From: Gemmata massiliana
Lineage (GTDB): Bacteria; Planctomycetota; Planctomycetia; Gemmatales; Gemmataceae
DNA length: 64,000 bases
Reading direction: 5' to 3'
Assembly (NCBI RefSeq): GCF_901538265.1
Contig: NZ_LR593886.1
Coordinates: 2,356,001 to 2,420,000, forward strand
Shown here: piece after piece, positions 14,790 through 64,000 of the stretch
How positions within the stretch are numbered: position 1 is the first letter of the stretch
How the letters are laid out: each line of letters begins with the position of its first letter
Made by a program: the position numbers and the translations under genes
The notes under the pieces: model-generated
Seen by the model: only the letters and a program-made list of their open reading frames with translations
Told to the model about the DNA's origin: nothing
The model's database searches: none

Positions 14790-16181
14790 TCACTCGGCCG
14801 GTTTCTCACTCTCTTTCTTCCATTCTTGCAGCTTGCGGTACATCGTGCGCTCGCTGATTTTGAGCATTTTGGCCGCTTCTTCCCGGTTTCCACCGGTCAG
14901 TTCTAGCGCCTTTTCCATGTAGTAGCGCTCGACCTCGTCGAGCGGGTGCCCGATCAGGTGGTCCGGACCGCTTGACGCGGTTGTGCCGCCCGCGCCGGGC
15001 GGCTTCACGCCCGCGTCGTCCGGGAAGTCGTCGGGCGTGAGTTCGCCGTCGAGGTCGAGGACCGTCATGCTGTCGAGCAGGTTCCGCAACTCGCGCACGT
15101 TCCCGGGCCAGTCGTAACCCTCGAAGGCCTTCCACACACCGGGCGACACTTTCGGCACCGGCTTGTTGTCGCGCCTGGCGAAGTCCTTCAGGAAGTGCGA
15201 AACCAGTTGCGGGACGTCTTCGCGGTGCTCTCGCAGCGGGGGAAGTTTAATTGTTCCGACCTTCAGGCGGAAGTAGAGATCCTGACGGAACCGGCCCGCG
15301 TCCACTTCTTTCTGGAGGTCTTTGTTCGTGGCCGCGATGATGCGCACGTCCACTTTGATCGGGTCGTTGGCCCCGATGCGCACGATCTCGCCGTTCTCCA
15401 AGGCGCGGAGCAGTTTCGCCTGGAGCGCGAGCGGCATGTCGCCGATCTCGTCGAGGAACAGCGTTCCCCCGTGCGCGTGCTCGAACCGGCCCTTGCGTGC
15501 GCCCTTGGACCCGGTGTACGCGCCGTCCTCGTGGCCGAACATTTCGTCGTCGAGGAGGTTCTCGTTGAGCGCGGCGCAGTTCATCGCGGTGAACGGCTTG
15601 GCCTTGCGCGGGCTGTTGGTGTGGAGCGAGCGGGCGACCAGTTCCTTACCAGTTCCGTTCTCGCCCAGAATGACGACGGACGCGGACGAGGGCGCATACG
15701 CTCTCAGCGCCTTTAGCACCTTCTGCATATTGGGACTATTACCGACCACGCCCTCGAAGCCGAACTTCTCGTCGATCTGCCGCCGCAAGTCGCGCAGAGT
15801 GCCCACGCGCTTGGCGGAGTTCTCGACCACCGCACGCAGTTCCGCCAAATTGAGCGGCTTGCGCAGGTAGTGAGCCGCCCCGCGCTTCATGGCCTCGACC
15901 GCGGTTTCGATCTCCGCGAACCCGGTGATGACGTACACGTCCACGTCCGGGCGCAGTTGCTTGCACCGCTCCACGACCTCCAACCCGTGCAGATCGGCCA
16001 TCTTCAGGTCGGTGAGTACCACGTCGAACGGCGTCTGCTCCAGTTTCGCGACGCCGGCCTTTCCCCCGGTCGCGATGGTGCAGGCGTGCCCGCGGCGCTC
16101 CAGGCTCTCGGCCACCGTTTCGGCGTGCGTCTTGTCGTCGTCGATCACGAGGATCTGGAGCGGTTCGGCCGGGGCGGACAT
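14790..16181 (-). CDS. Sigma-54-dependent response regulator (NtrC family)
   Basis: 463 residues. The receiver domain (about 8-125) has the acidic pocket IDDD, phosphoacceptor Asp58 (VLTDLKM) and Lys108 (YLRKPLN). The AAA+ domain (about 145-380) has Walker A GENGTGKE (173-180), GAYTGS (220-225, corresponding to GAFTGA, the sigma-54 contact), Walker [11 protein letters not shown], and arginine-rich sensor segments. A Fis-type helix-turn-helix (about 435-458, [22 protein letters not shown]) ends the protein. It should activate sigma-54 promoters after phosphorylation. No histidine kinase gene is adjacent. The ATG at 16181 ([16 protein letters not shown]) is chosen over upstream starts. Confidence 0.94.
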
Positions 16182-49700: not shown

Positions 49701-50485
49701 ACGGGGCGTTCGGGCTCGCGGCCGCCGGCGGGATCGTGTACGGCCTGATGACGATGCTCCTGCGGGTGTCGTCGTCGGGCGTGGACGCGCACGGGAAGCT
49801 GCTCCAGGGGCAGGTGCCCCAACTGGCCCAACCGATCGTCGGCCTCGCGCTCACGCCCGAGTCCAGTAAGATCCTCGGCCAGATGGTCTACGGCGTGGTG
49901 GCGTTCGCGACGCTGCTGAGCTTCGTGGGCACCGTTCTCGGGGGCATCTGGGCGGACCAGTCGTGGGGCCGGTTCTGGGGCTGGGATCCGAAGGAGAACG
50001 GGGCCGTTCTCATCGTGCTGTGGAACTCCCTGATCCTGCACGCGCGCTGGGCCGGTATCGTGAAGGACCGCGGCGTCGCGGTGCTCGCGGTGTTCGGCAA
50101 CACCATCACGGCGTGGAGCTGGTTCGGTACCAACCAGCTCGGCATCGGGCTCCACGCTTACGGGTTCGACAGCCGGCTCGCGGACGGGTGCTTCAACTTC
50201 TGGCTGCTCCAGTTCGTCGTTCTGGTGTGCGGGGCCGTGATCCCGCGGCACTTCTGGGCGAGCGCGACCCGTCGGGGCGCGGCGCAGAAACTTTCGGTCG
50301 CTGAAGTGGTGGGAACGAGCGCACCACTAGCGTCGGACGCAGGTACTACAGCGCACAATGAAACCGCGGCGGGGGCGAACGGTACGGTGCCCGCGAATTC
50401 GGTGAACGGCCACGCCAATGGTTCGCCCAATGGCAACGGGCCGTCGCACCGCGACAAGGGAAAGAAACACGGCAAGCGCCGGTAG
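46712..50485 (+). CDS. ResB-CcsA fusion, cytochrome c maturation
   Basis: 1257 residues. The N-terminal ResB-like part (about 20-480) has several membrane segments (LQLTVGLFVLGILLVFFGTLAQL, GGAMLVNLLAAHAVRF) and a large outside beta domain. A middle segment (about 485-770) begins RIPVVEGGRVKPLDTVARVNLRIV and is mostly helical. The C-terminal CcsA-like part (about 780-1190) has many membrane segments and the haem-handling motif WGRFWGWDPKENG at about 1085-1097, followed by conserved LHARW and a terminal Asn/Gly-rich tail. It attaches haem to apocytochromes outside the cytoplasm, as needed by the cytochrome genes in this window. No CcsX-like thiol protein is adjacent. Confidence 0.9.
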   Translation: MTPTMPHAPGEHGEPPVRIPSRGPVYYVLRGLKALASLQLTVGLFVLGILLVFFGTLAQLDNGVWTVVDKYFWSTIVMVPFELVHKFLNVFWKEAFPDGQSEWTGAFPLPGGILLGGAMLVNLLAAHAVRFRLTWKRSGIFLIHGGLLFLFVGEFITREYAVEQRMTIETGKSTDFTEDARHVQLVFVDRSAPETERVVAVPQELLRGAKGRVTHPELPVDIEVVGDYMVNSEFTEAAPGAPNPATVGWGQHLIGIKRKEVAGVDTEQKTDTPTVYVKLFKKGTDEALGVHYTSLWLYMMGRSDYVEADGKRYELVLRPKRYYKPYRIHLDQFRFDRYIGTGKPKNYSSDVRVYDQSGGEPVITQRISMNEPLRYAGETFYQQSFDRSEKTTILQVVKNPGWLLPYISCAVVGFGLLLHFGIFLVQFLLRTRAAQTLVSAAPPLAPRTVPVGTRYFPWLMLVAMVIYLLSVFGRMTPKTEPYDLDAFGRIPVVEGGRVKPLDTVARVNLRIVSGREEWEDEAGKKQPAIRWYLDVLSSENPEDRGPAWKHRVIRVDNEQVLSALELRPVEGLRYSLEELVPKFPIIRQRVAAAGKKVDNKQKLDQTETKFKELVERINVVSQIAAESGALSEGRGPLFLPPQEEGGTWTSLGKVRRDIETQMRPQLQSEFPISDEILAKMSEKEKAALSAKLRTRIEELESAALAKNPPAADWVKLLKSYRAKQSDEFNAVVREYRAKHAGNVSDVNPAHDFSERLVYGPFNGVGKLRTEVTFNRFQPFYQCTGLYVIGFVLSIIGFAASAAQKPGAATALRRSGTNVLILALVVHTVALFARMYLMQRVGVFVTNLYSSAVFIGWGCVALCLVLERLFPIGVGNVVAAALGLATCIVAHNLGTQQDTLEMMEAVLDTNFWLATHVTTVTLGYTATFVAGFLGAIYVLCVLGTVVRDSFESRGEPTVGALLAFGTAVVGLVAVPMFFLWFLKVALEKFELVNPILLDGAFGLAAAGGIVYGLMTMLLRVSSSGVDAHGKLLQGQVPQLAQPIVGLALTPESSKILGQMVYGVVAFATLLSFVGTVLGGIWADQSWGRFWGWDPKENGAVLIVLWNSLILHARWAGIVKDRGVAVLAVFGNTITAWSWFGTNQLGIGLHAYGFDSRLADGCFNFWLLQFVVLVCGAVIPRHFWASATRRGAAQKLSVAEVVGTSAPLASDAGTTAHNETAAGANGTVPANSVNGHANGSPNGNGPSHRDKGKKHGKRR

Positions 50486-51816: not shown

Positions 51817-52521
51817 TCAGGCGGCGCGCTTCAGTTGGTTCGCCTGAACCGCCTGTTCCCAGGCGCGGAACTCGGTCATGAACTGGCCCACGGCCTCGTC
51901 CGTCTTCGGGTGGCCGCACATTTGCGGGAAGAACTTCGGCGGCACCGTGATGATGTGCGCGCCGGCTTGGATCGCCTCGTTGACGTCCACGAGGTGCCGG
52001 ATGCTACCGACGATGATCTCGCTATCCAGCCCGCGCCGGTCGAGCGACTCGCGGGTCGAGCGGACCACCGAGCCGGCGTCGTAACCGATGTCTCGGATGC
52101 GCCCCCAGAACAGGCTGACGTACTTCGCGCCGGCGCTGGCGGCCATCACTGCCTGGTTGTACGACATGCAGCACGTGCAGTTCACCGGCACGTTGCGCCG
52201 GGCCAGTTGCGCGATCACCTTCAGTTCGTTCCACCCGATCGGGATCTTGATGTTCAGGTACGGGTAGTCACCGAACTCGTTGACGAACTGTTCCGCTTGG
52301 TCGGCCATCTTCGCCGGGTCGGTGGTGTTCACCTCGACGCTCAGCGGGATCTTCGCGTCGTGCTTGATGAGCGCGTCGATCATCGAGCGGATGTGCTCGC
52401 CGAAGTCCACGCAGTTGGACCGCGCGATGAGCATCGGGTTGGTGGTCACGCCCGACGCGAACCCGCGCTCAAGGCACGTTTCCAGTTCCTTCACGTCGGC
52501 GGTGTCGACGAACAGTTTCAT
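51817..52521 (-). CDS. Transaldolase / fructose-6-phosphate aldolase family enzyme
   Basis: 234 residues, the short (FSA/TalC-like) form. Asp6 (KLFVDTAD), TNPMLIARS, the Schiff-base Lys92 in YLNIKIP, NCTCCMSYNQAVMAASAGAKYVSLFWGRIRDIGYD and SIRHLVDVNEAIQAGAHIITVPPKFF all match. Transaldolases make sedoheptulose 7-phosphate; short forms may instead be fructose-6-phosphate aldolases. Its place at the end of a heptose cassette suggests that it supplies or drains sedoheptulose 7-phosphate, the GmhA substrate. Ends LKRAA. Confidence 0.88.
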   Translation of the reverse strand: MKLFVDTADVKELETCLERGFASGVTTNPMLIARSNCVDFGEHIRSMIDALIKHDAKIPLSVEVNTTDPAKMADQAEQFVNEFGDYPYLNIKIPIGWNELKVIAQLARRNVPVNCTCCMSYNQAVMAASAGAKYVSLFWGRIRDIGYDAGSVVRSTRESLDRRGLDSEIIVGSIRHLVDVNEAIQAGAHIITVPPKFFPQMCGHPKTDEAVGQFMTEFRAWEQAVQANQLKRAA

Positions 52522-52546: not shown

Positions 52547-53107
52547 TCAAGCGGCCGAGCGCCCCGCGACCTCGCCCGCACTCGTTGCCAGAACCCAGTC
52601 CACGGCGCCCGTGATATCGGGCGCCACGTGATCCGGAGCGCACCGCTCCGGTTGGCCGAACGGTGTATCGATCAGCACGCCGCGACAGCCCGCGGCGTGC
52701 GCCGCCGCGATGTCGCTCCAGCGGTCCCCGATCAGGAATGCGCCGGACAGGTCCAGGTTCCACTTCGCCGCCGCCGCGGTGAGCATCCCGGGCTTCGGCT
52801 TACGGCACGAGCACTTGTCCGCGGTGTCGTGGATGCACGCGAACACGTCGAGCAGCGGGAGCGCGCGGTACAGTTCCGCGTTGATCCGCTCGACCGCGGC
52901 GCGCGTCTGCGTTCCGCGGGCGACGTCCGGCTGGTTCGTCACGACGACGAGTACGAACCCGGCCCCGCGCAATCGGGCGAGCGCGCGCGCGACGCCGGGG
53001 AGCAGTTCGAGTTCGTCCACGCTCGCCGGCGGGCGCGTGGTACCGCCCTCGGGGAACGCTTTGTTCAGCACCCCGTCGCGGTCCAGGAACACGACCCGCT
53101 GCCCCAT
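52547..53107 (-). CDS. gmhB: D-glycero-D-manno-heptose 1,7-bisphosphate 7-phosphatase (HAD family)
   Basis: 186 residues, normal size. The HAD motif FLDRDGVLN has nucleophile Asp9 and acid/base Asp11; TNQPDVARG is motif 2; the zinc-binding loop has Cys91, His93, Cys99 and Cys101 as in E. coli GmhB; KPKPGML and LIGDRWSDIAAA complete the site. It removes the 7-phosphate from the bisphosphate made by the HddA-type kinase. Ends GRSAA. Confidence 0.93.
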   Translation of the reverse strand: MGQRVVFLDRDGVLNKAFPEGGTTRPPASVDELELLPGVARALARLRGAGFVLVVVTNQPDVARGTQTRAAVERINAELYRALPLLDVFACIHDTADKCSCRKPKPGMLTAAAAKWNLDLSGAFLIGDRWSDIAAAHAAGCRGVLIDTPFGQPERCAPDHVAPDITGAVDWVLATSAGEVAGRSAA

Positions 53108-53156: not shown

Positions 53157-53777
53157 CTACGCGGCCTTCTTCGCGTCCGCCGCGGCCGTCGATTCCCACT
53201 TGGTCGCGGCGGCCTTGAGTGCCGGGTGCGTGACGAACAGGTGCCACACCACCGCCTGGAACGCTTCCGCGTGCGGGGTGACGTGGGCCGCGTTCACCGT
53301 GGGCACGATCACGCAGGCGTCCGCGACCTTCGCGGTGTACCCGCCGTCGCGCCCGACGATCCCGCACACGGTCGCGCCGACGGTCTTCGCGTGCTGAACG
53401 GCGCGCACGAGGTTCGGGCTGACATTGCGCTCGAGGTCGCCGCCGCCGACGGAAAATACAAGGATGCCGTCCTTCGCGTTCAGCCGGCTGCCGCGGAGCC
53501 ACTCGACGAACACCGTCTCCCAGCCCTCGTCGTTGGTGCGGGCCGTGAGTTCGGACACGTTGTCGGTCGGCGAGTACGTCTCGATGCCCGCGATCTTGCG
53601 GAAGTCGTTGACGGCGTGCGAGGCGTTCGCGGCGCTGCCCCCGACGCCGAGGACGAACAGGCGCCCGCCGCGCCCGCGCACGCTCGCGAGCGCGTCCACG
53701 ACCTTGTCGATGGCGCCGGTGTCGAGCCGGGCGATGATCTCGCTCGCCTCGGTGAGGAACTGCTTCGTGAAGGACAT
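53157..53777 (-). CDS. gmhA: Sedoheptulose 7-phosphate isomerase (SIS domain)
   Basis: 206 residues. The SIS fold has GGRLFVLGVGGSAANASHAVNDF (phosphosugar loop), YSPTDNVSELTARTNDEGWETVFVEWL, ILVFSVGGGDLERNVSPNLV and the C-terminal HAEAFQAVVWHLFV with the conserved His/Gln pattern of GmhA. It converts sedoheptulose 7-phosphate to D-glycero-D-manno-heptose 7-phosphate. The active-site region after ASHAVND differs from E. coli GmhA. The ATG at 53777 is preferred over 53813, which would add an unrelated stretch. Context makes the GmhA assignment likely. Confidence 0.87.
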   Translation of the reverse strand: MSFTKQFLTEASEIIARLDTGAIDKVVDALASVRGRGGRLFVLGVGGSAANASHAVNDFRKIAGIETYSPTDNVSELTARTNDEGWETVFVEWLRGSRLNAKDGILVFSVGGGDLERNVSPNLVRAVQHAKTVGATVCGIVGRDGGYTAKVADACVIVPTVNAAHVTPHAEAFQAVVWHLFVTHPALKAAATKWESTAAADAKKAA

Positions 53778-53829
53778 TGGAGCGACTCCGTTCGCTGTAA
53801 GGGTTCGACCCACTCCCCGGCCCGTGCTC

Positions 53830-54543
53830 TCACGCCGCGCGGCTCAGAACGAACTGCTCGGCCTCGCGCAGGCCCGACGGCGACCCGATCTCGTAGAACC
53901 GTTTCGTCACCTCGAAGCCGACCATTTCACCACTCGCGACCAGCGCACTGTACAGTTCCGCGAGGTCCGACGGTTGGCCCGCCGGGATGCGCTCGATCGC
54001 GGTCCGGCGCAACAGCGACAGCCCGTAGTCGATGTGCGTCATGTCCGGGGTCGCGTCCTGCTTGCTGTACCGCAAGAGGCGCCCGCGCTGGAAGAGCACG
54101 TTGCTCTTGTCGAAGCTGTTCTCGTTGTGGAACACGGTCATCAGCCCGAGCGCGGTGTGCGACAGGGAATCGAAGACGCGCGCGTAATCCACGTCGAGGA
54201 GCGAGTCGCCGTACAGCACGAAACAGCCGTCGCCGATGAGCGGCAGCGCCCGGCGCACCGCGCCGCCGGTGCCGCGCGGGGTCGGGCCGTCTTCCGAGTA
54301 CCGGACGCGGAGGCCGAACCGCGCGCCGTCGCCCACGTAGTCCCGGATCTGGTCCGCGAAGTGGCCGACACACATCACGACTTCGCGGATGCCCTGTTCG
54401 TACAGGTCCTCGAACTGGTGGTCCACGAACGGGCGCCCGGCGACCGGCACCAGCGCCTTGGGGATCGCCTTCGCGACGTCGCCCAGGCGCGTGGCCTTGC
54501 CGCCGGCGAGGATCAGAACGGGTGTCGAAGCGAGGTCCGTCAC
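53830..54543 (-). CDS. hddC: Heptose 1-phosphate guanylyltransferase-like nucleotidyltransferase
   Basis: 237 residues. N-terminal PVLILAGGKATRLGDVAKAIPKALVPVAGRPFVDHQFEDL is the sugar-nucleotidyltransferase signature (GGxxTRL with Lys), followed by GPTPRGTGGAVRRALPLIGDGCFVLYGDSLLDVDY. Together with GmhA, GmhB and HddA neighbours it should make GDP-D-glycero-D-manno-heptose from GTP. A UTP- or other sugar transferase cannot be excluded from the sequence alone. Ends LSRAA. Confidence 0.88.
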   Translation of the reverse strand: MTDLASTPVLILAGGKATRLGDVAKAIPKALVPVAGRPFVDHQFEDLYEQGIREVVMCVGHFADQIRDYVGDGARFGLRVRYSEDGPTPRGTGGAVRRALPLIGDGCFVLYGDSLLDVDYARVFDSLSHTALGLMTVFHNENSFDKSNVLFQRGRLLRYSKQDATPDMTHIDYGLSLLRRTAIERIPAGQPSDLAELYSALVASGEMVGFEVTKRFYEIGSPSGLREAEQFVLSRAA

Positions 54544-54603
54544 GGGCGCTACCTTACTTTGTGATTTTCGTGCGTGCGGGGGAGCCGGGGCCGCTGTACC
54601 GAG

Positions 54604-55629
54604 TTACGCCGCCCGCCGCACCGCGGGGCGCAGCGCCGGCGAGGGCGTCGCGCCGCTCACGATCCGCGTACCCTCGAAGTCGAACCGGAACGGTACTTGT
54701 TGTAGTCCAGCTTCGGTCATCGTGTCGGTGAGTTGTTCGGCGTCCTCGGTGTAGAACATGAGGAACCCGCCGCCGCCGGCGCCGATCAGCTTGCCGCCCA
54801 GGCCGCCGTGCTTGAGCCCGAGGTCGTACCACTCATCGATGCGGGAGTTCGACATGTTCCCGCTGCGCTTCTTCTTCGAGCGCCAGTGGACGTTCATCAG
54901 CTCCGCGAAGGCGCGCAGGTCGCCGCCCTCGAGCGCTTCCTTGCTCTTCAGCCCCAAGTCCTTGATGAAGTGCAGGTTGTCGATCATCGACTGGTCGGCG
55001 GCCTTCGTCTTCGTGTCCTGCTCGCGCAACACCTCGGACGCGGACCGCGTGTACCCGGTGAAGTACAGCACGAGGTTCCGTTCGAGCCGGCGGAGCGTGT
55101 CCGACGATGCGCGGAGCGGCCAGTATTCGACGTGCCCGTCCGGGTGGAACCGGAAGCACGTTACCCCGCCGACCGCGGCGATGAACTGGTCCTGCTTGCC
55201 GACCGGTTCGCGGAGCCGGTCGATCTCGATGTGGCACGCTTGTTCGGCGAGTTCGGCGGCGCTCGGGTTCCCGTTGCGGAGCGCGTGCAGCCCGCGCAGG
55301 AGCGCGGTGCAGAAGCTCCCGGACGACCCCAATCCCGTGCCGGCCGGGATGTCGGCCATCGCCGCGATTTCCAGCCCGTCTGCCGGTATGCCCACGAGCC
55401 GCATCGCCTCGCGCACTAGCGGGTGCTGGATGGCCCCGACGTCCGTAACGCGCTCGGTCTGCGAGTACTTGAGGATCATCTCCGGCAGGATGGTCCGGTT
55501 GATGACGATGTGGACGTGCCGGTCGATGGCCGCGGCGACGAGGAACCCGGTGTGGTCGCGGTAATACGACGGCAGGTCGGTCCCACCACCACCGAGCGAG
55601 ATGCGGAGCGGGCTTCGCGTGATAATCAT
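54604..55629 (-). CDS. hddA: D-glycero-D-manno-heptose 7-phosphate kinase (GHMP family)
   Basis: 341 residues. GHMP motifs: N-terminal TRSPLRISLGGGGTDLPSYY, ADIPAGTGLGSSGSFCTALLRGL (phosphate loop, about 91-114) and KLIGAGGGGFLMFYTE near the C-terminus. HddA-type kinases phosphorylate the heptose at C1, giving the 1,7-bisphosphate. The gene is first in the heptose cassette, before the guanylyltransferase, isomerase, phosphatase and transaldolase-family genes. A C-terminal extension after GTRIVSG ends in RRAA. Confidence 0.92.
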   Translation of the reverse strand: MIITRSPLRISLGGGGTDLPSYYRDHTGFLVAAAIDRHVHIVINRTILPEMILKYSQTERVTDVGAIQHPLVREAMRLVGIPADGLEIAAMADIPAGTGLGSSGSFCTALLRGLHALRNGNPSAAELAEQACHIEIDRLREPVGKQDQFIAAVGGVTCFRFHPDGHVEYWPLRASSDTLRRLERNLVLYFTGYTRSASEVLREQDTKTKAADQSMIDNLHFIKDLGLKSKEALEGGDLRAFAELMNVHWRSKKKRSGNMSNSRIDEWYDLGLKHGGLGGKLIGAGGGGFLMFYTEDAEQLTDTMTEAGLQQVPFRFDFEGTRIVSGATPSPALRPAVRRAA

Positions 55630-55797
55630 CGGTCACTCCGCTTCCGTGCGGTGTGGTACTTCGGGATAACCGCGCATCGCGCGGTATTGTAATGGTCGGT
55701 TACGAGGCCCACTCTGCTCCAGAGTTTGCCGAAAAATCCGTTCGCTCCGTCGATCGCCTCTCCGAATTCTCTCGCGGGCGGTACCCGACTCTAGCCG

Positions 55798-56796
55798 TCA
55801 CGCCGCGCGTTTCGCCCTGTCGGACTGCTGGTACACGGCCGCGACCACGTCGAGGGCCGCGATCGCGTCTGTTAGCGTCGCGCCCGTTCCCGTTGTGCCC
55901 GCGATCGCGTTCTCGAAGTCCCGGAACTCGGCGTTCCACGACGTATCTTCGCCCGGGTACTCCCAGATGGTCGTTTCCGGCGGACCCATTTGCGGCAGCA
56001 TGCGGTAGTACGCGAGCCGCTCGACGCCGTAGCTCCCGCCGAGACCGTCGATCTGGAGCTTCCCGGTGCGGCCGTAAATTTCGAGGCAGAACAGGTTCTT
56101 CCACTCGGAGCAGCTCGCGTGCAGCCACCCCACCTGGCCGCCGGCGTGGTGCAGGCAGACGAACCCGTTGTCCTCGGCCGGCATGTCCCAGAAGAACGTC
56201 CCCGCGAACCCGCTCACGCTCGCCACGTCGCCGAGGAACCAGCGCGTGAGGTCGATCAGGTGAACGCCCTGGTCGAGCAACTCGCCGCCGCCCGCGAGGG
56301 TCGGGTCCGCGCGCCATTCGCGGTCGTAGCCCACGCGCCCGCCGTGCCCGTAGCGCCCGCGGACGAACATCATCGGCCCGCACGCGCCCGCGTCGACGAG
56401 TTCCCGCGCCTTGCGGAGGGCCGGGTGGAACCGGTGGTTGAACCCGACGCGGACTGTCACCCCCGCGCCCTTTGCCGCGGCCGCGACGGGGCGAAGCTCA
56501 TCGGCCGAACGCGCGGCCGGCTTCTCCACGAGAACGTGCTTGCCCGCGCGAACGGCCCCGAGCGTGATCGCCGCGAGCGCGTCGTTGATCGTTGCGACGA
56601 CGACCGCGTCGATGTCGGCCCGGGCGACCAACTCGCGCCAGCCCGCGCTGGCTGCGCAGCCCGGGTACGCTTTGGCGAGTTGGGCCGCGCGCTCCGGAAC
56701 CGCGTCCGCGGTGCCCGCGACGGTGTGCCCCAGTGCCGCGATTGACTTCGCGCGCTTCCCGCCGATCAACCCGCACCCCACGATGGCTACGCGCAC
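55798..56796 (-). CDS. Gfo/Idh/MocA family oxidoreductase
   Basis: 332 residues from a GTG start. The Rossmann motif RVAIVGCGLIGGKRA, VVVATINDALAAI, and the family Lys-Pro signature VEKPAARS, followed by FNHRFHPALRKARELV and GGGELLDQGVHLIDL (the His is likely catalytic), are all present. These enzymes oxidise or reduce sugar hydroxyls or ketones using NAD(P). In a nucleotide-sugar locus the substrate is likely to be a sugar nucleotide. GTG 56796 overlaps the preceding SDR gene by ten bases; GTG 56805 is an alternative. Ends KRAA. Confidence 0.87.
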   Translation of the reverse strand: MRVAIVGCGLIGGKRAKSIAALGHTVAGTADAVPERAAQLAKAYPGCAASAGWRELVARADIDAVVVATINDALAAITLGAVRAGKHVLVEKPAARSADELRPVAAAAKGAGVTVRVGFNHRFHPALRKARELVDAGACGPMMFVRGRYGHGGRVGYDREWRADPTLAGGGELLDQGVHLIDLTRWFLGDVASVSGFAGTFFWDMPAEDNGFVCLHHAGGQVGWLHASCSEWKNLFCLEIYGRTGKLQIDGLGGSYGVERLAYYRMLPQMGPPETTIWEYPGEDTSWNAEFRDFENAIAGTTGTGATLTDAIAALDVVAAVYQQSDRAKRAA

Positions 56797-57674
56797 TTCT
56801 TCCACCCCCCGCGGTCGTCCGGTGTGATCCGGCGCAGCGTGTAAATGTCGCCGGCGGCCAACTCGTCCCGCTTCTCGGGCAGGCCCGCCCAGTCGTCCCA
56901 CACCGCACTAATCAGGCGCCCGGAGATCCCGTCGGACGCGGCGGAGGCGAGGAACACGGAGAGCTCCGCGCCCTTCTCCAGTGGGGTGCCCCCGCCGTCG
57001 CGCGTCTTCGTCATCCGCTCGAAGAAGGGCGCGCCCACTTTCTCCGGGCCGGCTGCGATGAGGTCGTCCATGAGGCGCGTGTTGAGCGCGCCGGGCGCGA
57101 CCGCGTTCACGTCGATGCCGGCCCCGCGGGTCTCCTCCGCGAGCGTCTCCGTGAACCGCACGACGGCCGCTTTCGACGCCGCGTATGAGCTGATGCGCGG
57201 GAGCGGGGCCGTTGCGCCGCCCCCGGACAGGTTCACGATTTTGCCGTACCCGGCGGCCCGCATGTGCGGCAGGAACGCTCGACACATCAAAATCGTGCCG
57301 AACAGATTGATCTCAATGGCCTTCACCCACTCGGCCCAGTCGTTGTCCTCGATGAGCCCGAACGGGCCGTAAACGCCCGCGTTGTTCACCAGGACGCACG
57401 GGTTGTCGAGCTCCGCGAGCGCGTGTCGCGCGGTCTCCGCGCAGTGGCCCTCGTTCGAGACGTCCGCGACGCGGGAGAGGACGCACTGTCCCGGGAGAGT
57501 GGCGAACCGGGCGAGCTCAGCCGCGGTTCGGTTCAGCAGTTCTTCGCCGCGCGCGGTGACGAGTACGCTGGCGCCGGCGCGCACGAAGTGTTCTGCGATC
57601 GAGCGCCCCAGCCCCTGGTTCGCCCCCGTAATAACCGCCGACCGGCCGGCCAGCGGTTTGTCCCGCGCGTCCAT
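56787..57674 (-). CDS. SDR-family oxidoreductase
   Basis: 295 residues, a classical short-chain dehydrogenase. The nucleotide motif SAVITGANQGLGRS (TGxxxGLG), NNAG (LVNNAGVYGP), and catalytic Ser/Tyr/Lys (LSGGGA...SSYAASKAAVVRFTE, YxxxK) are intact, with PGALNTRL afterwards. The acidic C-terminal extension (about 250-295) is unusual. Substrate not determined; likely a sugar or sugar nucleotide because of the neighbours. Ends KKCA. Confidence 0.88.
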   Translation of the reverse strand: MDARDKPLAGRSAVITGANQGLGRSIAEHFVRAGASVLVTARGEELLNRTAAELARFATLPGQCVLSRVADVSNEGHCAETARHALAELDNPCVLVNNAGVYGPFGLIEDNDWAEWVKAIEINLFGTILMCRAFLPHMRAAGYGKIVNLSGGGATAPLPRISSYAASKAAVVRFTETLAEETRGAGIDVNAVAPGALNTRLMDDLIAAGPEKVGAPFFERMTKTRDGGGTPLEKGAELSVFLASAASDGISGRLISAVWDDWAGLPEKRDELAAGDIYTLRRITPDDRGGWKKCA

Positions 57675-57770
57675 TCGCAGCGTCTCCTCGGCACTTTGCG
57701 TGAACTGCGGTGTCTATACCCCGCCCCGCGTCTCGGGGACAAGAGCAACAAGAAGTGAATTTTTGTAACA

Positions 57771-57799
57771 CGCGGGCACCCGATCGATCGGTGCCCGCG
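57771..57799. terminator. Hairpin between the UGDH-like and SDR genes
   Basis: CGCGGGCACC (57771-57780) and GGTGCCCGCG (57790-57799) form a perfect 10-base-pair stem with the loop CGATCGATC, just after the end of the minus-strand UGDH-like gene. The downstream minus-strand sequence lacks a clear T run (TGTTACAAAAATTC). Weak terminator or processing site. Confidence 0.5.
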
Positions 57800-57808
57800 C
57801 GCTCAGAA

Positions 57809-59077
57809 TTAGGCCGCGCGCCCGGCCGCGACGTAGCTGATGGTGGGGTCGTTGGCGAGTCCGGCCGCCAAGAAGTGGGTGGGGTCGATGACGCGCGGGC
57901 GCTTCATCGCGCCGCGCACCTGGGCCGGGGTGAGCGCGCGGTACTCCGGCCACGGCGTCGCCAGCACGCTCACGTCCGCCCCGCGCATCGCGCCCTCGGC
58001 CGTGGGCGCGAGTTCGACCCCCGCGAGCTCGTCCGCCGCGCCCCGAACCGCCGGGTCGTGGGCCTGGACCTTGACCCCGCGCGCCAGGAGCCACCGGCAC
58101 AGTTCGACCGAACCCGAGCGCCGGAGCGTGTCCGTGCCCGGCTTGTACGTGAGCCCCAGTACCGCGACGGTCGCGCCCGGGGGGACGCTCGCGAGCTGGT
58201 CGCGGAGCCAGTTCTTCTGGCACTCGTTGCTCTCGCGCACGCCCCGGAACAGGTGCGCCGGGCGCTCGTGCTGGTGCGCGAGTTCGAGCAGGAAGCCGAT
58301 GTCGCGCGCGAGCGTGCCGCCCGCGAACGCGGCCCCCGGCGAGAGGTACGCCTTCGGCCCGATCCGCTGCTCGGTCTTGAGCCCGCGCTCCACCTCTTTG
58401 GCGTCCGCGCCGACCATCTCGCAGATGCGCGCGAGTTCGTTAATGAACGCCACCGATGTGGCCAAAAATGCGTTCACCGCGTGCTTCGTCATCTCGGCGG
58501 ACGCGACCGACATCCACACCCGCTCGCCCCCGAACGGCGCGAGCAGTTCCGTGAGCTTTTCGCGATCCCCCGGCGCGCACCCGAGCACCACGCGGTCCGG
58601 TTTGCGGAAACAGTCGAGCGCCTGACCCAGGCGCAGGTTCTCGGGCGAACACGCCACGCGCACGCCGCGCCCGACCCAGTCCGCGGCGAGCCGCGCGCCG
58701 AACCCGACCGGCACCTGGGAGGAGACGAGAACGAGGGTACCGGGGGCCAGGTGCGGGGCGATGTCTTCCAGCCGATCGCGGACCCACTGCACGTCGGCGC
58801 TGTCGTTCGCGTCGACCGGCGTGTCGAAACACACCCACACGACTTCGGCAGAAGGGACCGCGTCGGCCGCGGCGGTGGTAAAGCGGAGTCGCTGGGCCGT
58901 TTGCTGTTCGGCGGTGAGCGCGGCGAGCCCGGGCTCGTCCACCGGCGGCTTGTTCGCCCGGAGGTCGGCAATCGTGGTCGGGTCCGGATCGAGGCCGACG
59001 ACGCTGTGCCCGCCCTCCGCGAGGCACGCGGCCGTCACGCTGCCGAGGTGCCACAACCCGTACACGGTGACGCGCAT
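57809..59077 (-). CDS. UDP-glucose/GDP-mannose dehydrogenase family protein without the catalytic cysteine
   Basis: 422 residues. The three domains are present: NAD-binding MRVTVYGLWHLGSVTAACLAEGGHSVVGLD, SPENLRLGQ with Glu146, central TKHAVNAFLATSVAFINE with Lys198 and Asn202, and the C-terminal nucleotide-binding segment TVAVLGLTYKPGTD. The catalytic Cys of the family (GGSCFPKD) is Thr255 here (FAGGTLARD), while Asp259 is kept. In the normal reaction the Cys carries the covalent thiohemiacetal/thioester for the second oxidation. Without it the enzyme may stop at the aldehyde or work in another way; see findings. Ends AGRAA. Confidence 0.88.
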   Translation of the reverse strand: MRVTVYGLWHLGSVTAACLAEGGHSVVGLDPDPTTIADLRANKPPVDEPGLAALTAEQQTAQRLRFTTAAADAVPSAEVVWVCFDTPVDANDSADVQWVRDRLEDIAPHLAPGTLVLVSSQVPVGFGARLAADWVGRGVRVACSPENLRLGQALDCFRKPDRVVLGCAPGDREKLTELLAPFGGERVWMSVASAEMTKHAVNAFLATSVAFINELARICEMVGADAKEVERGLKTEQRIGPKAYLSPGAAFAGGTLARDIGFLLELAHQHERPAHLFRGVRESNECQKNWLRDQLASVPPGATVAVLGLTYKPGTDTLRRSGSVELCRWLLARGVKVQAHDPAVRGAADELAGVELAPTAEGAMRGADVSVLATPWPEYRALTPAQVRGAMKRPRVIDPTHFLAAGLANDPTISYVAAGRAA

Positions 59078-59141
59078 GAGAACTTCCTTGCGGTTCGCGT
59101 TCGTTGCCGCACGGGGCTTTCCCTCCCCGTGCGGAGCCGCA

Positions 59142-60104
59142 TCATGCGGCGCGGCGCGATTCCAGCACCCACGGGTTCGCGCGGAGGTAGTCGAGCGTGC
59201 GAACGACCGCCTCGCGGATGCTCAGCGTTTGGCGCCAGCCGAACGACTTGAGTTTCGCGGTGTCGAGGAAGATGAACGGGCTGTCGCCGATCCACCCGCG
59301 TGTGCCGCCGGTATGGTTCACCTTGGGGGTTAGTCCGAGCCGCTCGCAGATCCACCCCAGGGAGTCATCGACCTGGCAGTACTCGTCCGCACCCAGGTTC
59401 ACGACGGTGACCGGGTCCGCGGCCTTCTCCGCTACGGTGAGGATCGCGTCGACGCAGTCCTGCACGTAGAGGTAGCTCTTCCGCTGTTTGCCGTTACCGA
59501 GCACCTCGATGGCGTGCGGGTTGGCGAGCAGTTTCGCGTAGAAATCGAACACGTGGCCGTGGGTGTAGCGCTCGCCGAGGATCGAGACGAACCGGAAGAT
59601 GAACGCCTGGAACCCGAACCCGGTCGCGTAGGCCGAGATCAGCCCCTCGCCCGCGACCTTGCTGGCCGCGTACAGGCTCGTCTGGACCGGGAACGGGGCG
59701 TTCTCGGGCGTCGGGAACACCTCGGCCTCGCCGTACACGGACCCGGTGGACGAGAACCCGATGCGCTTCACCCCGTTCAGGCGCATCGCTTCGAGCACGT
59801 TGAACGTGGCGATCGTGTTCTGCTGGAGGTCGCGGTCCGGGTGGTCGGTGCCGAACCGGACGTCCGCGTTGGCCGCGAGGTGGAACACGAGGTCGTGCCC
59901 CGCGACTGCGCGCGTGAGGGCGGCCTTGTCGAGCAGGTCGCCCTCGACGAGCGCGAACCGGGCACTTTTCTGTGCGTCCGCGAGGAACGGGCGCTGCCCC
60001 GTGCTGAAGTTGTCGAACGCGGTCACGTGGTGCCCGGCCGCGAGGAGCCGGTCCACCAAGTTACTGCCGATGAACCCGGCCCCACCGGTGACGAAGTAGC
60101 GCAT
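59142..60104 (-). CDS. NAD-dependent epimerase/dehydratase (UDP-glucose 4-epimerase-like)
   Basis: 320 residues. Extended SDR with RYFVTGGAGFIGSNLVDRLLAAGHHVTAFDNFSTG, HLAANADVRFGTDHPDRD, SSTGSVYGEAE and the catalytic YAASK (YxxxK). Further IFRFVSILGERYTHGHVFDFYAKLLANP is typical of the family. Whether it is a 4-epimerase, a decarboxylase or a 4,6-dehydratase is not resolved; a nucleotide-sugar substrate fits the neighbours. Ends SRRAA. Confidence 0.87.
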   Translation of the reverse strand: MRYFVTGGAGFIGSNLVDRLLAAGHHVTAFDNFSTGQRPFLADAQKSARFALVEGDLLDKAALTRAVAGHDLVFHLAANADVRFGTDHPDRDLQQNTIATFNVLEAMRLNGVKRIGFSSTGSVYGEAEVFPTPENAPFPVQTSLYAASKVAGEGLISAYATGFGFQAFIFRFVSILGERYTHGHVFDFYAKLLANPHAIEVLGNGKQRKSYLYVQDCVDAILTVAEKAADPVTVVNLGADEYCQVDDSLGWICERLGLTPKVNHTGGTRGWIGDSPFIFLDTAKLKSFGWRQTLSIREAVVRTLDYLRANPWVLESRRAA

Positions 60105-60133
60105 GTCGGTTAACCTCCGTGTCTTTTCTCGAC

Positions 60134-60883
60134 TCAGGCCGCGGCGCGGGCGCTCTGTTCGTTGAGAGCCTTCGGGCGGGGCTTGAGGGTGAGCCCGATG
60201 ACCAGGTTGCACCACGTCGCCGGGACGAACCGGAACGGGAAGAAGCGGCGGTGCGCCACCGTGAAGTACGGCGCGAGTTCTTCCAGGATCTCGTGCGGCC
60301 GGTTCACATGCTCGCGCTCGATGAACCACTTGTAGGGCTGTTTGTAGCGCCGCTCGAAGATGCGCTGCGCGGACACGCGCCGCGCCGCGGTGTACGCGAG
60401 GCTGCCCTCGCACGGGATCACGATCGAGAACGTGCCCCGGGCCTTGTCGCAGAGGCGGTACATTTCGCGCGCCGCGGCGGGCAGGTTCGGCAGGTGCTCG
60501 AGCACGTGAATGGCGAGGACGCGGTCGAAGTAGCCGTCCGGGTGCGGGAGCCGGGCCTGGCAGTCGCCGGTGACCGTTTGGACGCGCGGGAACCGCTCCC
60601 GGATCGCCGCGCTCATGTTCTCGCGCAGCTCGAGTGCGTGGTACTCGCGCTCCTGCTCGGGCGCGAGCCGCTCGTACTTCAGGTGCTCGCCGATCCCGGC
60701 CCCGATCTCGAGCGTGCGGTGGAACTCCGCGGGCGCGTACCGCACCGGGTAGGAGTGGTTGAACCGGTCGATGCGCCCGAACTTGTTGGGCAGCACCTCG
60801 TGCCAGTGTTTCATGAAATCGTCGCTGATCCGCTGCTGCTCGGGCGTGAGCGGCGGGAACGTTTTCGGCCACTTCGTGGGCAC
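60134..60883 (-). CDS. Class I SAM-dependent methyltransferase
   Basis: 249 residues from a GTG start. The SAM motif TLEIGAGIGEHLKYE (E/DxGxGxG), EYHALELRENMSA and the HVLEHLPNLPAA signature of class I methyltransferases are present. N-terminal TPEQQRISDDFMKHWHEVLP is reminiscent of glycan-locus methyltransferases. Acceptor unknown; probably a glycan or lipid-linked sugar. The GTG 60883 is chosen because the conserved region begins soon after; an ATG 24 codons further upstream is less likely. Ends ARAAA. Confidence 0.82.
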   Translation of the reverse strand: MPTKWPKTFPPLTPEQQRISDDFMKHWHEVLPNKFGRIDRFNHSYPVRYAPAEFHRTLEIGAGIGEHLKYERLAPEQEREYHALELRENMSAAIRERFPRVQTVTGDCQARLPHPDGYFDRVLAIHVLEHLPNLPAAAREMYRLCDKARGTFSIVIPCEGSLAYTAARRVSAQRIFERRYKQPYKWFIEREHVNRPHEILEELAPYFTVAHRRFFPFRFVPATWCNLVIGLTLKPRPKALNEQSARAAA

Positions 60884-60935
60884 GGCGCACTCCTGGACGG
60901 GGTGTCTCGCGGGCGGACTTTGAACGGGGCCGGCC

Positions 60936-61679
60936 TCACACGCGCGGCACGGCAACGGCCGGCGCGCGGCGCCCGCCGAACCGGATTCGGAACAGATCCT
61001 TGAAGTTCTTCCAGTTCCCGGAGACGAGTTTGAGTCGGGTGTCGCCGTCGTCCTGCCACGCGACCCCGACCTCTTTGATGCGGTACCCGGCCCGAACAGC
61101 TAGTGAGAGGATCTCGACGTCGAACATGTACCCGTCGATGCGCTGGCGTGAGAACAGGTCTCGGGCGACCTCGGCGCGGAAGAACTTGAACCCGCACTGC
61201 GTGTCGCCGATGCCGTGGAGCCCGATCAAGGGCCTCATGACCAGCGCGAACCCCTTGGACCCGATGCGCCGGTACCACGGTTGGCGCACGCGGATGTCCG
61301 CGCCGGCCGCGGCCCGGGAGCCGATCACGATGTCGTAGTCGCGGTCGAGCCAGGGCAGCACCTTTTCGATTTCCTCGATCGTCACCTTGTAGTCCGCGTC
61401 GAGGAACCCGACGATCTCGCCGGTGGCGGCGAGCACGCCCTCCCGCACCCCGCGCCCCTTGCCCCGGCGCTCGGGCGCGCCCATGACCCGGACCGGCAGC
61501 TCCCGCGCGAGGGCCGCGGCGGCCTCCCGGGTGCCGTCGGCGCCGTCGGCCGCGACGATCAGTTCGTAGGTGGTGCCCCGCGGGGCGAGGTAGTCCCGGA
61601 TCGCGCGGAGGGTGCGCTGGATCGTCGCGACCTCGTTGAACGCGGGGATCACCAGACTCAGTTGGGGGGGCGCGCTCAT
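60936..61679 (-). CDS. Family 2 glycosyltransferase (dolichyl-phosphate glucose synthase type)
   Basis: 247 residues. LSLVIPAFNEVATIQRTLRAIRDYL, ELIVAADGADGTREAA, GKGRGVREGVLAATGEIVGFLDADYKVTIEEI (DXD-like) and DTQCGFKFFRAEVARDLFSRQRIDGYMFDVEIL match the ALG5-like dolichyl-phosphate beta-glucosyltransferase group, which makes polyprenyl-phosphate sugars on the cytoplasmic face. No C-terminal membrane helices are visible, unlike many members. It would supply lipid-linked sugar donors to the neighbouring membrane protein; inference. Confidence 0.87.
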   Translation of the reverse strand: MSAPPQLSLVIPAFNEVATIQRTLRAIRDYLAPRGTTYELIVAADGADGTREAAAALARELPVRVMGAPERRGKGRGVREGVLAATGEIVGFLDADYKVTIEEIEKVLPWLDRDYDIVIGSRAAAGADIRVRQPWYRRIGSKGFALVMRPLIGLHGIGDTQCGFKFFRAEVARDLFSRQRIDGYMFDVEILSLAVRAGYRIKEVGVAWQDDGDTRLKLVSGNWKNFKDLFRIRFGGRRAPAVAVPRV

Positions 61680-61713: not shown

Positions 61714-64000
61714 TTACGGGGCCGGTTGCTTCGGCTCGAAGCCGACGAACCGGAGGTGCGCGCCGACGGCCCGTCCGTCCGGGCGCGGGAGCACTTGCGT
61801 GTTCAAGAATCGGCATTCGAGCCGGTGCGCTTGAGCCCCCTTCGGGGCGGGCACCCGCACCTCGAAGTCGCCCGGGGCGAGGGGCCGCTTCGCGACCTCG
61901 GCGCCGTCCAGGAGTACGACCAGTTCGGTCCGGAACCCGGTGTTCCCCTCGACCACGGGGATCTGCCCGCGCACGACCGCGTCGCGAGCCGGGTCAGGTT
62001 GCCACACCTGTGCCGAGAACGTCCCCGAGCACCAGCCGTCCCCGTGGACCCCGACCACCCCGGCCCGCGGGTGCCGCAGGTCGCCCGGGAACGAGGCGAG
62101 GGCCTCGGGGGGGCGCGAAAGGGCCTCGTTCTTCGGCTCGAAGCCCACCGATCGGATCAGCGCGACGGCGCTCCGGCCGTCGGGCGCGGGGAGAATTTGG
62201 GAGTGCGAGAAGCGCAGTTCGATCCACCGCGGACCGGCACCCGCGCCCCCGGGCACGCGGATCTCGAACTCGCTCGGGCTCAGAACCCGGGTCTCGGTGG
62301 GGCGCCCGTCGACGAGCACCGTGGCCTCGGTGCGGAACTCGGCCGCCGCGATCTGGGGGATCATGCCGTGGATCACCGCTTCCTGGTCCGGGGCCGGCTG
62401 TGTGAGCCGGATTTTGAACTCCGTGCCGACCCAACCCTCTTCGTAGATGCCGGAGTACTCGAGGTGCGGGTGGGTCAGGTCGTCGGGGAACCGGGCCACC
62501 CGCTCCGGCGGGCGGAACGCCGCGTACTCTTCTTCGGAGAGCACCGAAATGTCGCGGGCGTGGCCGGCCAACTGGCGCCGGTCGCGCGGCAGGTGGGCGC
62601 CCCAGAGCTGTTCGATCGCGGTCAACTGGTTGGAGTTGCGGGTCGTCGGCCCGAAATCGAGCGCGAGGTACCGGCCCGGGCCGACCGGTTGTGTGGCGAC
62701 CGGCGGTGAAACCAGCCGCGCCGAGCCGGAGCCGATCGCCCCGAGCGCCACGCGCCGGTCCCCGGCAACGTGTACCGGGGGCACCTGGCGCCGCGCCGCG
62801 TCGCTCCGGAAAGACCCGGTGCAACTGACGAGTACCCGAACGTGCGGGGCCGGGTTCAGTACGTCGAGGAGCATCGCCCGGCCGATGCCACCGGCCGTGC
62901 GGCCGCGGAGCACGGGGTCCTGTTCCAACTGGTAAAGTGCGATCTCGTCGGGCGTGTGGTACCCGAAGTAGTGCTGGCGGGCGCCGGTCGCGTCACAGAA
63001 GACCGCGAAGTTCCGGAGCTCCGACAGCGGCGCGCACACGAGCGCCGGGCCGGCTTCCGGGAACCGGTACCGGTTCAGGAGCGAGAAGCTCCCGCCCCCG
63101 GCCACGACCAGGGTGCGCTCCGGGGCCTCTTTCGTGCGGTCGTAGGTGGGGCTTATGAGCGTGTGAGCCGGTTGCCGCGGGTCCGGGTTCGTAACGGTGA
63201 ACAGGCCGCGCGCTTGGGCCGCGATAAATGTCGCGCCCATCTCCCGCAGCGGCTCCCGCCACTCCTCGTTGAGCCGGAGCCACGGCGCCGTGTGCATTAG
63301 GCGGTACCCGCCCTCGGCCGAACCGGCGACCGGGGACACCCCGATCGCGCTGACCGGTGTGCCCCGGATCTCCGACGCGAGCAGTTTGCTCAGCCCGTTG
63401 TTCTCGATCGCCAGGACCACGCGGTCCACGTCGCCCGCCGCCGCGCGGCGCGCGTACTGCGCGCGGAAATCGGAAAAAACGCGCCGGTGGGTCGCCGCCG
63501 CGATCTCGACCCGGTTCTCCCCCCCCTGGCTCTGGTCCACGTACCAGAACTGGACCCGGGCGTTCAGCCCGACAACGACGAGCACAAGGGCGGCGGCCCC
63601 CGTCGCGGCCCAGCGGGTCCGGCGGGTGACCACCCACGCGGCCACGACCGCCCACAGGAACGGTTGGGCGAACATGGCGATTTTAAACAGCCCGAAAGAA
63701 AACCGCTGCACGTAGAGCGCCGCGGTCATGGCCACGATCGTTCCCAGGGCGGCCGCGAACGCGCGCCGCCCCCGGATGCTTGAAACGGTCGGGACCACTA
63801 CGGCCGCCAGGAGCACGAGCCCGAAGATGATGCTGGTGGTTTGCAGGAGCGTCGATTCGGTGCCCGCGAACGGTAGGAACCCCCACACCAGGGCCGGCCC
63901 GCGCGGGGTCAGGTAGTACGGGAATATTTCCGCGACCACCGCGGACGACCCGCCGTTGGCCCCCGACTGCATGGCCAGGAAGTGGACCGCCCCGTACAGG
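61714..64000 (-). CDS. Large membrane protein with tandem beta-domain repeats (5' end outside window)
   Basis: The frame is open to the window end; 762 residues are visible. Near the visible N-terminus are three hydrophobic segments (TTSIIFGLVLLAAVVVPTVSS, FAAALGTIVAMTAALYVQ, KIAMFAQPFLWAVVAAWVV, AATGAAALVLVVVGLNARV). The long extracytoplasmic part ends with two similar domains of about 120 residues: one from FPDDLTHPHLEYSGIY to RSVGFEPKN (about 62130-62496) and one from FPGDLRHPRAGVVGVH to RFVGFEPKQ (about 61723-62094). It may be a membrane glycosyltransferase with C-terminal carbohydrate-binding domains; the catalytic part is not visible. No family is firmly recognised. Confidence 0.7.
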   Translation of the reverse strand, partial: LYGAVHFLAMQSGANGGSSAVVAEIFPYYLTPRGPALVWGFLPFAGTESTLLQTTSIIFGLVLLAAVVVPTVSSIRGRRAFAAALGTIVAMTAALYVQRFSFGLFKIAMFAQPFLWAVVAAWVVTRRTRWAATGAAALVLVVVGLNARVQFWYVDQSQGGENRVEIAAATHRRVFSDFRAQYARRAAAGDVDRVVLAIENNGLSKLLASEIRGTPVSAIGVSPVAGSAEGGYRLMHTAPWLRLNEEWREPLREMGATFIAAQARGLFTVTNPDPRQPAHTLISPTYDRTKEAPERTLVVAGGGSFSLLNRYRFPEAGPALVCAPLSELRNFAVFCDATGARQHYFGYHTPDEIALYQLEQDPVLRGRTAGGIGRAMLLDVLNPAPHVRVLVSCTGSFRSDAARRQVPPVHVAGDRRVALGAIGSGSARLVSPPVATQPVGPGRYLALDFGPTTRNSNQLTAIEQLWGAHLPRDRRQLAGHARDISVLSEEEYAAFRPPERVARFPDDLTHPHLEYSGIYEEGWVGTEFKIRLTQPAPDQEAVIHGMIPQIAAAEFRTEATVLVDGRPTETRVLSPSEFEIRVPGGAGAGPRWIELRFSHSQILPAPDGRSAVALIRSVGFEPKNEALSRPPEALASFPGDLRHPRAGVVGVHGDGWCSGTFSAQVWQPDPARDAVVRGQIPVVEGNTGFRTELVVLLDGAEVAKRPLAPGDFEVRVPAPKGAQAHRLECRFLNTQVLPRPDGRAVGAHLRFVGFEPKQPAP

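Follow-up and report, generated by a model that had tools for sequence, protein, structure and literature searches.

The window analysed here is a stretch of 64,000 nucleotides of the Gemmata massiliana contig NZ_LR593886.1. On its minus strand, at positions 57809..59077, lies a complete open reading frame of 422 amino acids with an ATG start, the product of which is called UGDHlike in the following. The protein matched all three Pfam domains of the UDPG/GDP-mannose dehydrogenases (PF03721/PF00984/PF03720) and scored 304.6 bits against the subfamily model TIGR03026, for which the cut-off is 189.8. None of the equivalog cut-offs of the UGDH family was reached, neither those of TuaD (236 vs 700 bits) and AglM (214 vs 670) nor those of UDP-ManNAc dehydrogenase (114 vs 459) and of the UDP-glucose 6-dehydrogenase model PRK15057 (83 vs 757). 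Domain matches, alignments, a tree and a structure model describe UGDHlike as a Cys-less oxidoreductase of UGDH fold which carries Thr255 for the catalytic Cys, as well as Trp9, His10, Gln121 and Leu150. The genome of 10.1 Mb encodes two further members of the family. The one of these whose motif was read (L001, G000:C1:7257862) is an ordinary Cys-bearing UGDH.

The neighbouring genes described next are also located on the minus strand. An extended SDR epimerase (SDRe, 59142..60104, PF01370) is encoded before UGDHlike, in the position of an LmbM-like epimerase, and its nearest solved relatives include UDP-glucose 4-epimerases. It is preceded by a SAM-dependent methyltransferase (60134..60955, Methyltransf_11) with an uncertain start (TTG in the longest open reading frame), a family 2 glycosyltransferase (GT2, 60936..61679, PF00535) and a large protein without Pfam match (61714..63972), whose reading frame is still open where the window ends and which tblastn detected in loci of the genus only. 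The methyltransferase belongs to the variable part of the neighbourhood, with a similar gene in one of eight congener loci (L037). On the other side of UGDHlike follow a classical SDR (SDRc-A, 56787..57674, PF00106), which travels with UGDHlike, and a Gfo/Idh/MocA oxidoreductase (55798..56796, PF01408 and PF22725), which is conserved in the cassette. The start of the latter was placed at a GTG before VRVAIVGCG, which gives an overlap of 10 bases with the end of SDRc.

Five genes for sugar phosphate metabolism complete the cassette. They encode a HddA-like GHMP kinase (54604..55629), a HddC-like sugar-1-phosphate nucleotidyltransferase with a GTG start (53830..54543), a GmhA-like SIS-domain phosphosugar isomerase (53157..53777), a GmhB-like HAD-IIIA phosphatase (52547..53107) and a small protein of the transaldolase / fructose-6-phosphate aldolase family (51817..52521; 129.5 bits for PF00923). 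Against the respective equivalog models these proteins scored 151 bits (far under the HddA cut-off of 600), 80 bits (cut-off 300), 49 bits (209), 121 bits (178) and, for TIGR00875, 146 bits (246). Since a separate, full-length transaldolase is encoded elsewhere in the genome (G000:C1:5182128-5183150), the copy in the cassette looks dedicated. On the plus strand of the window, at 46712-50485, a single open reading frame of 1257 amino acids combines ResB-like and cytochrome c assembly domains.

A sequence-only reading of this DNA had proposed that Thr255 of UGDHlike occupies the position of the catalytic Cys of the family. This was confirmed by HMMER/phmmer alignments with solved UGDHs, in which Thr255 stands in an ungapped stretch over the Cys of the GGSCFPKD motif of 4a7p, 3gg2, 2y0e and 2y0d. 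Asp259 is aligned with the catalytic Asp, the stretch between it and Thr255 being ungapped, and Glu146, Lys198 and Asn202 were likewise located where they had been claimed to be. An AlphaFold model built from 15 sequences (mean pLDDT 87.8, pTM 0.81) replaced a first model from 8 sequences (mean pLDDT 77.9), which was poor around the active site. The new model corresponds to UGDH over its full length, with 3gg2_B (Z 45.1, rmsd 2.0 over 410 residues), 2y0e_B (Z 42.4) and 1dlj (Z 36.0) as structural matches. In the predicted structure Thr255 is found at the start of helix 254-269 and Asp259 within it. This is the same arrangement as that of Cys260 and Asp264, which share one helix according to PMC4794789. 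Within the core, the model is least certain at the active-site loop (pLDDT 60 and 67 for the blocks 241-250 and 251-260).

Homologs with Thr at this position (T-type) were collected together with ordinary relatives, and Thr was present in 25 of 25 members of the subfamily compared to Cys in 28 of 28 ordinary rows. As the rows were sorted by the motif itself, the independent result is that the 25 T rows make up a single supported clade: in a quick maximum-likelihood tree of the 53 rows a branch with an SH-aLRT value of 100 separates them from the Cys rows, and the outlying member L067 has a long branch. The T rows comprise nine proteins of the genus (including that of the window), L040, four from other planctomycete families, five from Acidobacteriota, two from Rhizobium, one from Lawsonia and three from IMG/VR, where L104 and L105 hardly differ from each other. 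The Cys rows are hand-picked controls (L001, the 21 loci L013-L033, L059, L071 and four IMG/VR loci). Outside the count are L002, L043-L044 and 26 phage records, whose motif was not read, family matches from the 59 genomes searched for which there was no locus, and 190 of 194 plasmid records, the motif having been read in four (H1, H2, H4 and H6).

Among the window genome and 18 congeners UGDHlike was present in nine, with at least 79% identity. The next-best matches in the 59 genomes searched were 34-41% identical, and all 21 that were read carry Cys. An E-value of 1e-95 was reached in 6 of 392 planctomycete genomes (that of the window, four T-type and one ordinary, L059) and in 6 of 297 genomes of Acidobacteriota, all T-type. 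Further members are encoded on two Rhizobium plasmids and on plasmid 3 of Lawsonia intracellularis, and the seven matching IMG/VR loci divide into three T-type loci and four with Cys. Thr255 was kept in all nine genus members, encoded by ACG in eight and by ACC in one. The median dN/dS of the 36 pairs of genus members was 0.10 (range 0.06-0.17; several pairs are saturated with dS >1). Thus, the subfamily is under purifying selection. A pseudogene or a sequencing error was rejected on the basis of Thr255 in 9/9 genus members and these dN/dS values. The earlier proposal that the exchange reflects a changed outcome and not decay is supported by the single clade, the uniform 25/25 pattern and the purifying selection. 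In the open-licence literature searched we recognised no description of a Cys-less UGDH clade.

According to PMC4794789, NDP-sugar dehydrogenases are four-electron enzymes with an invariant Cys, and 18 residues are invariant in 229 family members. The residue numbers of S. pyogenes UGDH were transferred to our alignment by motif. On this basis, UGDHlike has kept 14 of the 18 residues on that list, and four are changed: Gly9 to Trp9, Thr118 to Gln121, Gly257 to Ala252 and Cys260 to Thr255. Each of these positions is altered in 25/25 subfamily members, with Trp, Gln, Ala or Ser, and Thr, respectively. Two more conserved residues are replaced in all 25 members, Tyr10 by His10 and Glu145 by Leu150; Leu at the latter position is not unique to the subfamily and also occurs in 2 of the 28 Cys rows. 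The same paper describes Tyr10 (98% conserved) as the catalyst of thioester hydrolysis, gives a conservation of 76% for Glu145 and ascribes a structural role to Glu141. Lys204, Asn208 and Asp264, the residues of the first oxidation, were retained in 25/25 members, as were Glu141, Glu201, Asn219 and Lys320, and most other residues of the list are kept in the subfamily too. In window numbering, Lys198, Asn202, Asp259 and Lys312 are invariant throughout the subfamily. The GxGxxG motif (residues 7-12) reads G-L-W-H-L-G, with Trp for the middle Rossmann glycine in every member, and compared to NDP-sugar dehydrogenases one additional residue precedes the AYLSPG loop.

The alignment was also inspected for a different Cys at the active site, and no substitute was conserved in all 25 members. 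The best conserved were C219 (24/25, and also in 25/28 ordinary rows), C18 (22), C327 (21) and C143 (19). Another Cys in the active site was therefore rejected. A single isolated substitution was rejected as well, because several catalytic positions are altered together. The sequence-only reading was right that the Lys, Asn, Asp and Glu are kept, but overstated the case in calling all other catalytic residues recognisable, since four of 18 invariant residues and Tyr10 and Glu145 are changed. Its proposal that the second oxidation is lost is strengthened by the exchange of Tyr10 for His in 25/25 members while the equivalents of Lys204, Asn208 and Asp264 stay. With both residues of the thioester step (Cys260 and Tyr10) lost and those of the first oxidation kept, the second oxidation seems to have been removed in a coherent way rather than by a lone substitution.

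The part of the cassette from SDRe to the transaldolase recurs in other planctomycete families, in Acidobacteriota, on Rhizobium and Lawsonia plasmids and on an IMG/VR contig. Kinase, nucleotidyltransferase, isomerase, phosphatase and transaldolase all occur together with UGDHlike in 11 loci besides the window (L034, L037, L040, L056, L060, L065, L066, L068, L069, L070 and L104), with an altered gene order in the Lawsonia locus L070 and in L104. L063 lacks the nucleotidyltransferase only, and the 19.5-kb stretch of L067 contains neither a transaldolase nor an isomerase nor SDRc. Contig ends cut L035, L036, L055, L057, L058, L064, L103 and L105. The cassette is split in G002 (L061/L099), G017 (L062/L100) and G011 (L038/L101), where UGDHlike, SDRe and GT2 are far from the block from SDRc to the transaldolase. 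SDRe was found in the loci of all nine genus members and in every other T-type row except L103, a stretch that begins 317 bases before the UGDHlike gene; in L067, L104 and L105 it is just 37-39% identical to that of the window. The Gfo and SDRc genes of L104 are only 26-28% identical to those of the window. For L104, L068 and L070 some rows of the cassette comparison are self-matches, and the window queries give 26-57%.

L104 (1825-14277; IMGVR_UViG_3300032053_012243) is, like L103 and L105, a contig filed as viral that carries cassette genes. In L104 they encode the nucleotidyltransferase, phosphatase, transaldolase, isomerase, epimerase and kinase as well as the Cys-less UGDH, an SDR and Gfo. 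A homing endonuclease gene lies inside this cassette and a gene for a phage-type DNA methyltransferase adjoins it. The cassette L070 is located on plasmid 3 of Lawsonia intracellularis, an intracellular bacterium of animals, at 6571-31872 of the record, close to glycosyltransferase genes. Its annotations include galactokinase, transaldolase and nucleotide sugar dehydrogenase.

A transaldolase gene was present in 12 of the 13 T-type loci that extend beyond the phosphatase gene and was retained in all three congener cassettes without UGDHlike. It was found in none of five plasmid GHMP-kinase clusters without UGDHlike (five examined of 40 listed, from 88 records). Thus, the transaldolase marks the cassette and not UGDHlike, and the UGDHlike step is not essential to the cassette, as 3/3 congeners keep the transaldolase cassette without it. 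The cassette transaldolases are of two types. That of the window's genus is FSA/TalC-like, and the type found elsewhere (L040 at 15059-15791, L068 and L070) is 26-32% identical to that of the window; the Lawsonia protein passes TIGR02134. It appears as if the transaldolase had been swapped within the cassette.

The three congeners with a cassette but without UGDHlike are G006, G009 and G012. The DNA of G009 aligned with the window at 53829-57233 (92%) and 59139-60108 (94%), with nothing in between. The SDRc protein of G009 is 90-100% identical to that of the window in the last 55 residues and 10-66% in the first 240; G012 behaves alike, and the step is weaker in G006. The alignment break and the step in SDRc identity show that the exchanged piece comprises UGDHlike and the 5' portion of SDRc, in place of which these congeners have a different SDRc 5' portion. 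The exchange loci L096 (11154-12220), L097 and L098 correspond to about 56955-59139 of the window. SDRc-A is kept at 77-100% identity in the nine genus members with UGDHlike, and a 48-51% allele is present in the three without it. In an SDRc tree the 20 rows from UGDHlike carriers group together with a support of 98. This group includes the proteins of Acidobacteriota, rhizobia and Lawsonia and excludes the exchange allele of the congeners, the second SDR of L057 and the SDRs of IMG/VR. Together with the exchange, this grouping indicates that UGDHlike and SDRc-A move as a pair. An exception are the IMG/VR contigs, which carry UGDHlike with a distant SDR. From the pairing it seems likely that the UGDHlike product is the substrate of SDRc.

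Since the parts for the second half-reaction are replaced across the subfamily, the enzyme most likely introduces a keto group into a cell-surface sugar with an unusually long chain. Our preferred reading, to which we assign a probability of about 0.5, is that UGDHlike is an NAD+-dependent two-electron oxidoreductase from which the second half-reaction was removed, and which converts the C6 hydroxyl group of an NDP-heptose or NDP-octose to a ketone. The predicted fold, the residue pattern, the single clade, the purifying selection, the conserved cassette and the co-exchange with SDRc are its computed basis. From these we infer the substrate, the position C6, the ketone product and the order of the steps, and the given probability covers the reading as a whole.

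In the proposed sequence of reactions, transaldolase, ketose-to-aldose isomerase, kinase, phosphatase and nucleotidyltransferase would make an NDP-activated heptose or octose, by analogy possibly a GDP-sugar. C6, the carbon oxidised by ordinary UGDH, would be a secondary alcohol in such a C7/C8 sugar. A water molecule bound by Asp259 would take the proton, Lys198 and Asn202 would hold the oxygen, and NAD+ would accept the hydride, so that a 6-ketone would form and be either released or transient. A ketone could not be oxidised further and a thioester would be impossible; Cys and the hydrolysis Tyr would thus be dispensable while Lys, Asn and Asp stay. SDRc would then handle the ketone, either by reduction or by re-setting of stereochemistry, and the Gfo/Idh/MocA protein would also act. 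We lean towards an octose rather than a heptose, because a transaldolase is present and the heptose equivalog models give low scores. The sugar could also be something else, since kinase, nucleotidyltransferase, isomerase and phosphatase all stay under the curated heptose models. Further points against the preferred reading are the departures of L067 and L104 from the cassette, the uncertain active-site loop of the model and a Cys-to-Ser mutant of UGDH which builds up a covalent adduct according to PMC3184952, so that a Thr hydroxyl group need not be inert.

An aminotransferase as the next enzyme was rejected, as none was found in the window: a search for the DegT family at E 0.001 gave no match in this stretch of the genome. 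In tblastn searches (E 1, 30 loci and the window) a DegT query matched only its own locus L111 as well as L034 and L065, in both cases outside the cassette. Given this result and the paired SDRc, the ketone is perhaps reduced and not aminated in the window pathway.

A redox-neutral enzyme is the main alternative, although a rather unlikely one. Such an enzyme would form the C6 ketone transiently, keep NADH bound and return the hydride once water has been eliminated or the centre inverted. With an octose this could be a 6,8-dehydration, as reported for LmbL, and with a heptose an epimerisation, where Thr or His could serve as acid/base. Trp9 and His10 at the dinucleotide loop of all 25 members could keep NAD bound, and tight binding at Trp9, if present, would favour this alternative. 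The cassette also matches the lincosamide octose set by function. However, the missing DegT-family aminotransferase in the window speaks against this route.

It is improbable that UGDHlike acts on an ordinary NDP-hexose, with a single oxidation of the primary alcohol at C6 and release of the 6-aldehyde. Without Cys and the hydrolysis Tyr the normal reaction would indeed halt at the aldehyde, but kinase, isomerase, phosphatase, nucleotidyltransferase and transaldolase make the cassette look built for a C7/C8 sugar phosphate, which argues for a ketone, and the Cys-bearing UGDH of the same genome already covers hexose oxidation. Accordingly, the sequence-only reading, in which the neighbours fitted an aldehyde or a keto sugar, holds for the keto sugar, while the aldehyde is the less likely product because C6 of a C7/C8 sugar is a secondary alcohol. 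An ordinary four-electron oxidation to the acid, via a hydrated aldehyde or another Cys, is very improbable: according to PMC3184952 a Cys-to-Ala UGDH mutant still oxidised the aldehyde intermediate, although it did not complete the reaction from UDP-glucose, but no alternative Cys occurs in all members here and Tyr10 and Thr118 are lost as well. That UGDHlike has no catalytic role and serves SDRc or SDRe as a partner or sensor is in our view equally far-fetched, for although two residues of the NAD site are changed (Gly9 and Thr118) and the sensor role suggested earlier agrees with the co-exchange with SDRc in three congeners, it found no support beyond this, and Lys198, Asn202, Asp259 and Lys312 are invariant in 25/25 members.

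The ketone-forming reading can be extended, as a tentative proposal, to the cassette as a whole. The cassette would represent a lincosamide-type C8 pathway outside the antibiotic producers, used as a mobile surface-glycan cassette, with UGDHlike turned into a C6 dehydrogenase/dehydratase of a secondary alcohol by the loss of Cys and Tyr10. Joint exchange of UGDHlike and SDRc would serve to alter the sugar that is made. It would span Planctomycetota, Acidobacteriota, rhizobia, Lawsonia and probably phages. The product is probably mispredicted in several phyla; the annotation of the Lawsonia member as nucleotide sugar dehydrogenase, for example, would suggest a uronic acid. The clade may point to a family of long-chain surface sugars, and without Cys and hydrolysis Tyr it would constitute a natural test of a fold trimmed to one oxidation.

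Compared to the NDP-sugar dehydrogenases (UDP-glucose 6-, GDP-mannose and UDP-ManNAc dehydrogenase), UGDHlike has the same predicted fold and the Lys, Asn and Asp of the first oxidation, at an identity of 34-41% to other family members in related genomes. With the GDP-D-glycero-D-manno-heptose pathway of the Campylobacter capsule the cassette has the GmhA, HddA, GmhB and HddC families in common, but all four enzymes stay under the NCBIfam equivalog cut-offs, and transaldolase and UGDHlike are added. Of the lincosamide enzymes, LmbL belongs to the UGDH family, LmbZ to Gfo/Idh/MocA and LmbS to the DegT family. Wang et al. (2020) reportedly assigned 6-epimerisation, 6,8-dehydration, 4-epimerisation and 6-transamination to LmbM, LmbL, CcbZ and CcbS. 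No lincosamide enzyme was named among the listed solved relatives of four neighbours of UGDHlike, and the transaldolase of one relative matched no solved structure at a strict cut-off.

According to PMC4351081 (Table 2) and PMC12945683 (Table 1), the lincosamide operon is lmbVTQRSOPZNML plus lmbK and encodes transaldolase (R), isomerase (N), kinase (P), phosphatase (K), guanylyltransferase (O), epimerase (M), dehydrogenase (L), oxidoreductase (Z) and aminotransferase (S). LmbM, LmbL, CcbZ and CcbS convert GDP-octose to GDP-lincosamide (PMC12945683). Matched by these function tables, eight functions are shared with the window cassette and the 11 further loci, namely transaldolase, isomerase, kinase, phosphatase, nucleotidyltransferase, epimerase, dehydrogenase and oxidoreductase. 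LmbL/CcbL, the C8 dehydrogenase of lincomycin and celesticetin, was likewise likened to UGDHlike by tabulated gene function and not by sequence. The gene order in the window is transaldolase, phosphatase, isomerase, nucleotidyltransferase, kinase, Gfo, SDRc, UGDHlike and SDRe. With respect to the lincosamide order ...R-S-O-P-Z-N-M-L, O-P-Z stand in the same relation, flanked by R at one end and by L and M at the opposite end. The lincosamide pathway has the aminotransferase LmbS, where the window cassette has SDRc instead. Of the pathways known to us, that of the lincosamide octose comes closest to the chemistry predicted for the cassette.
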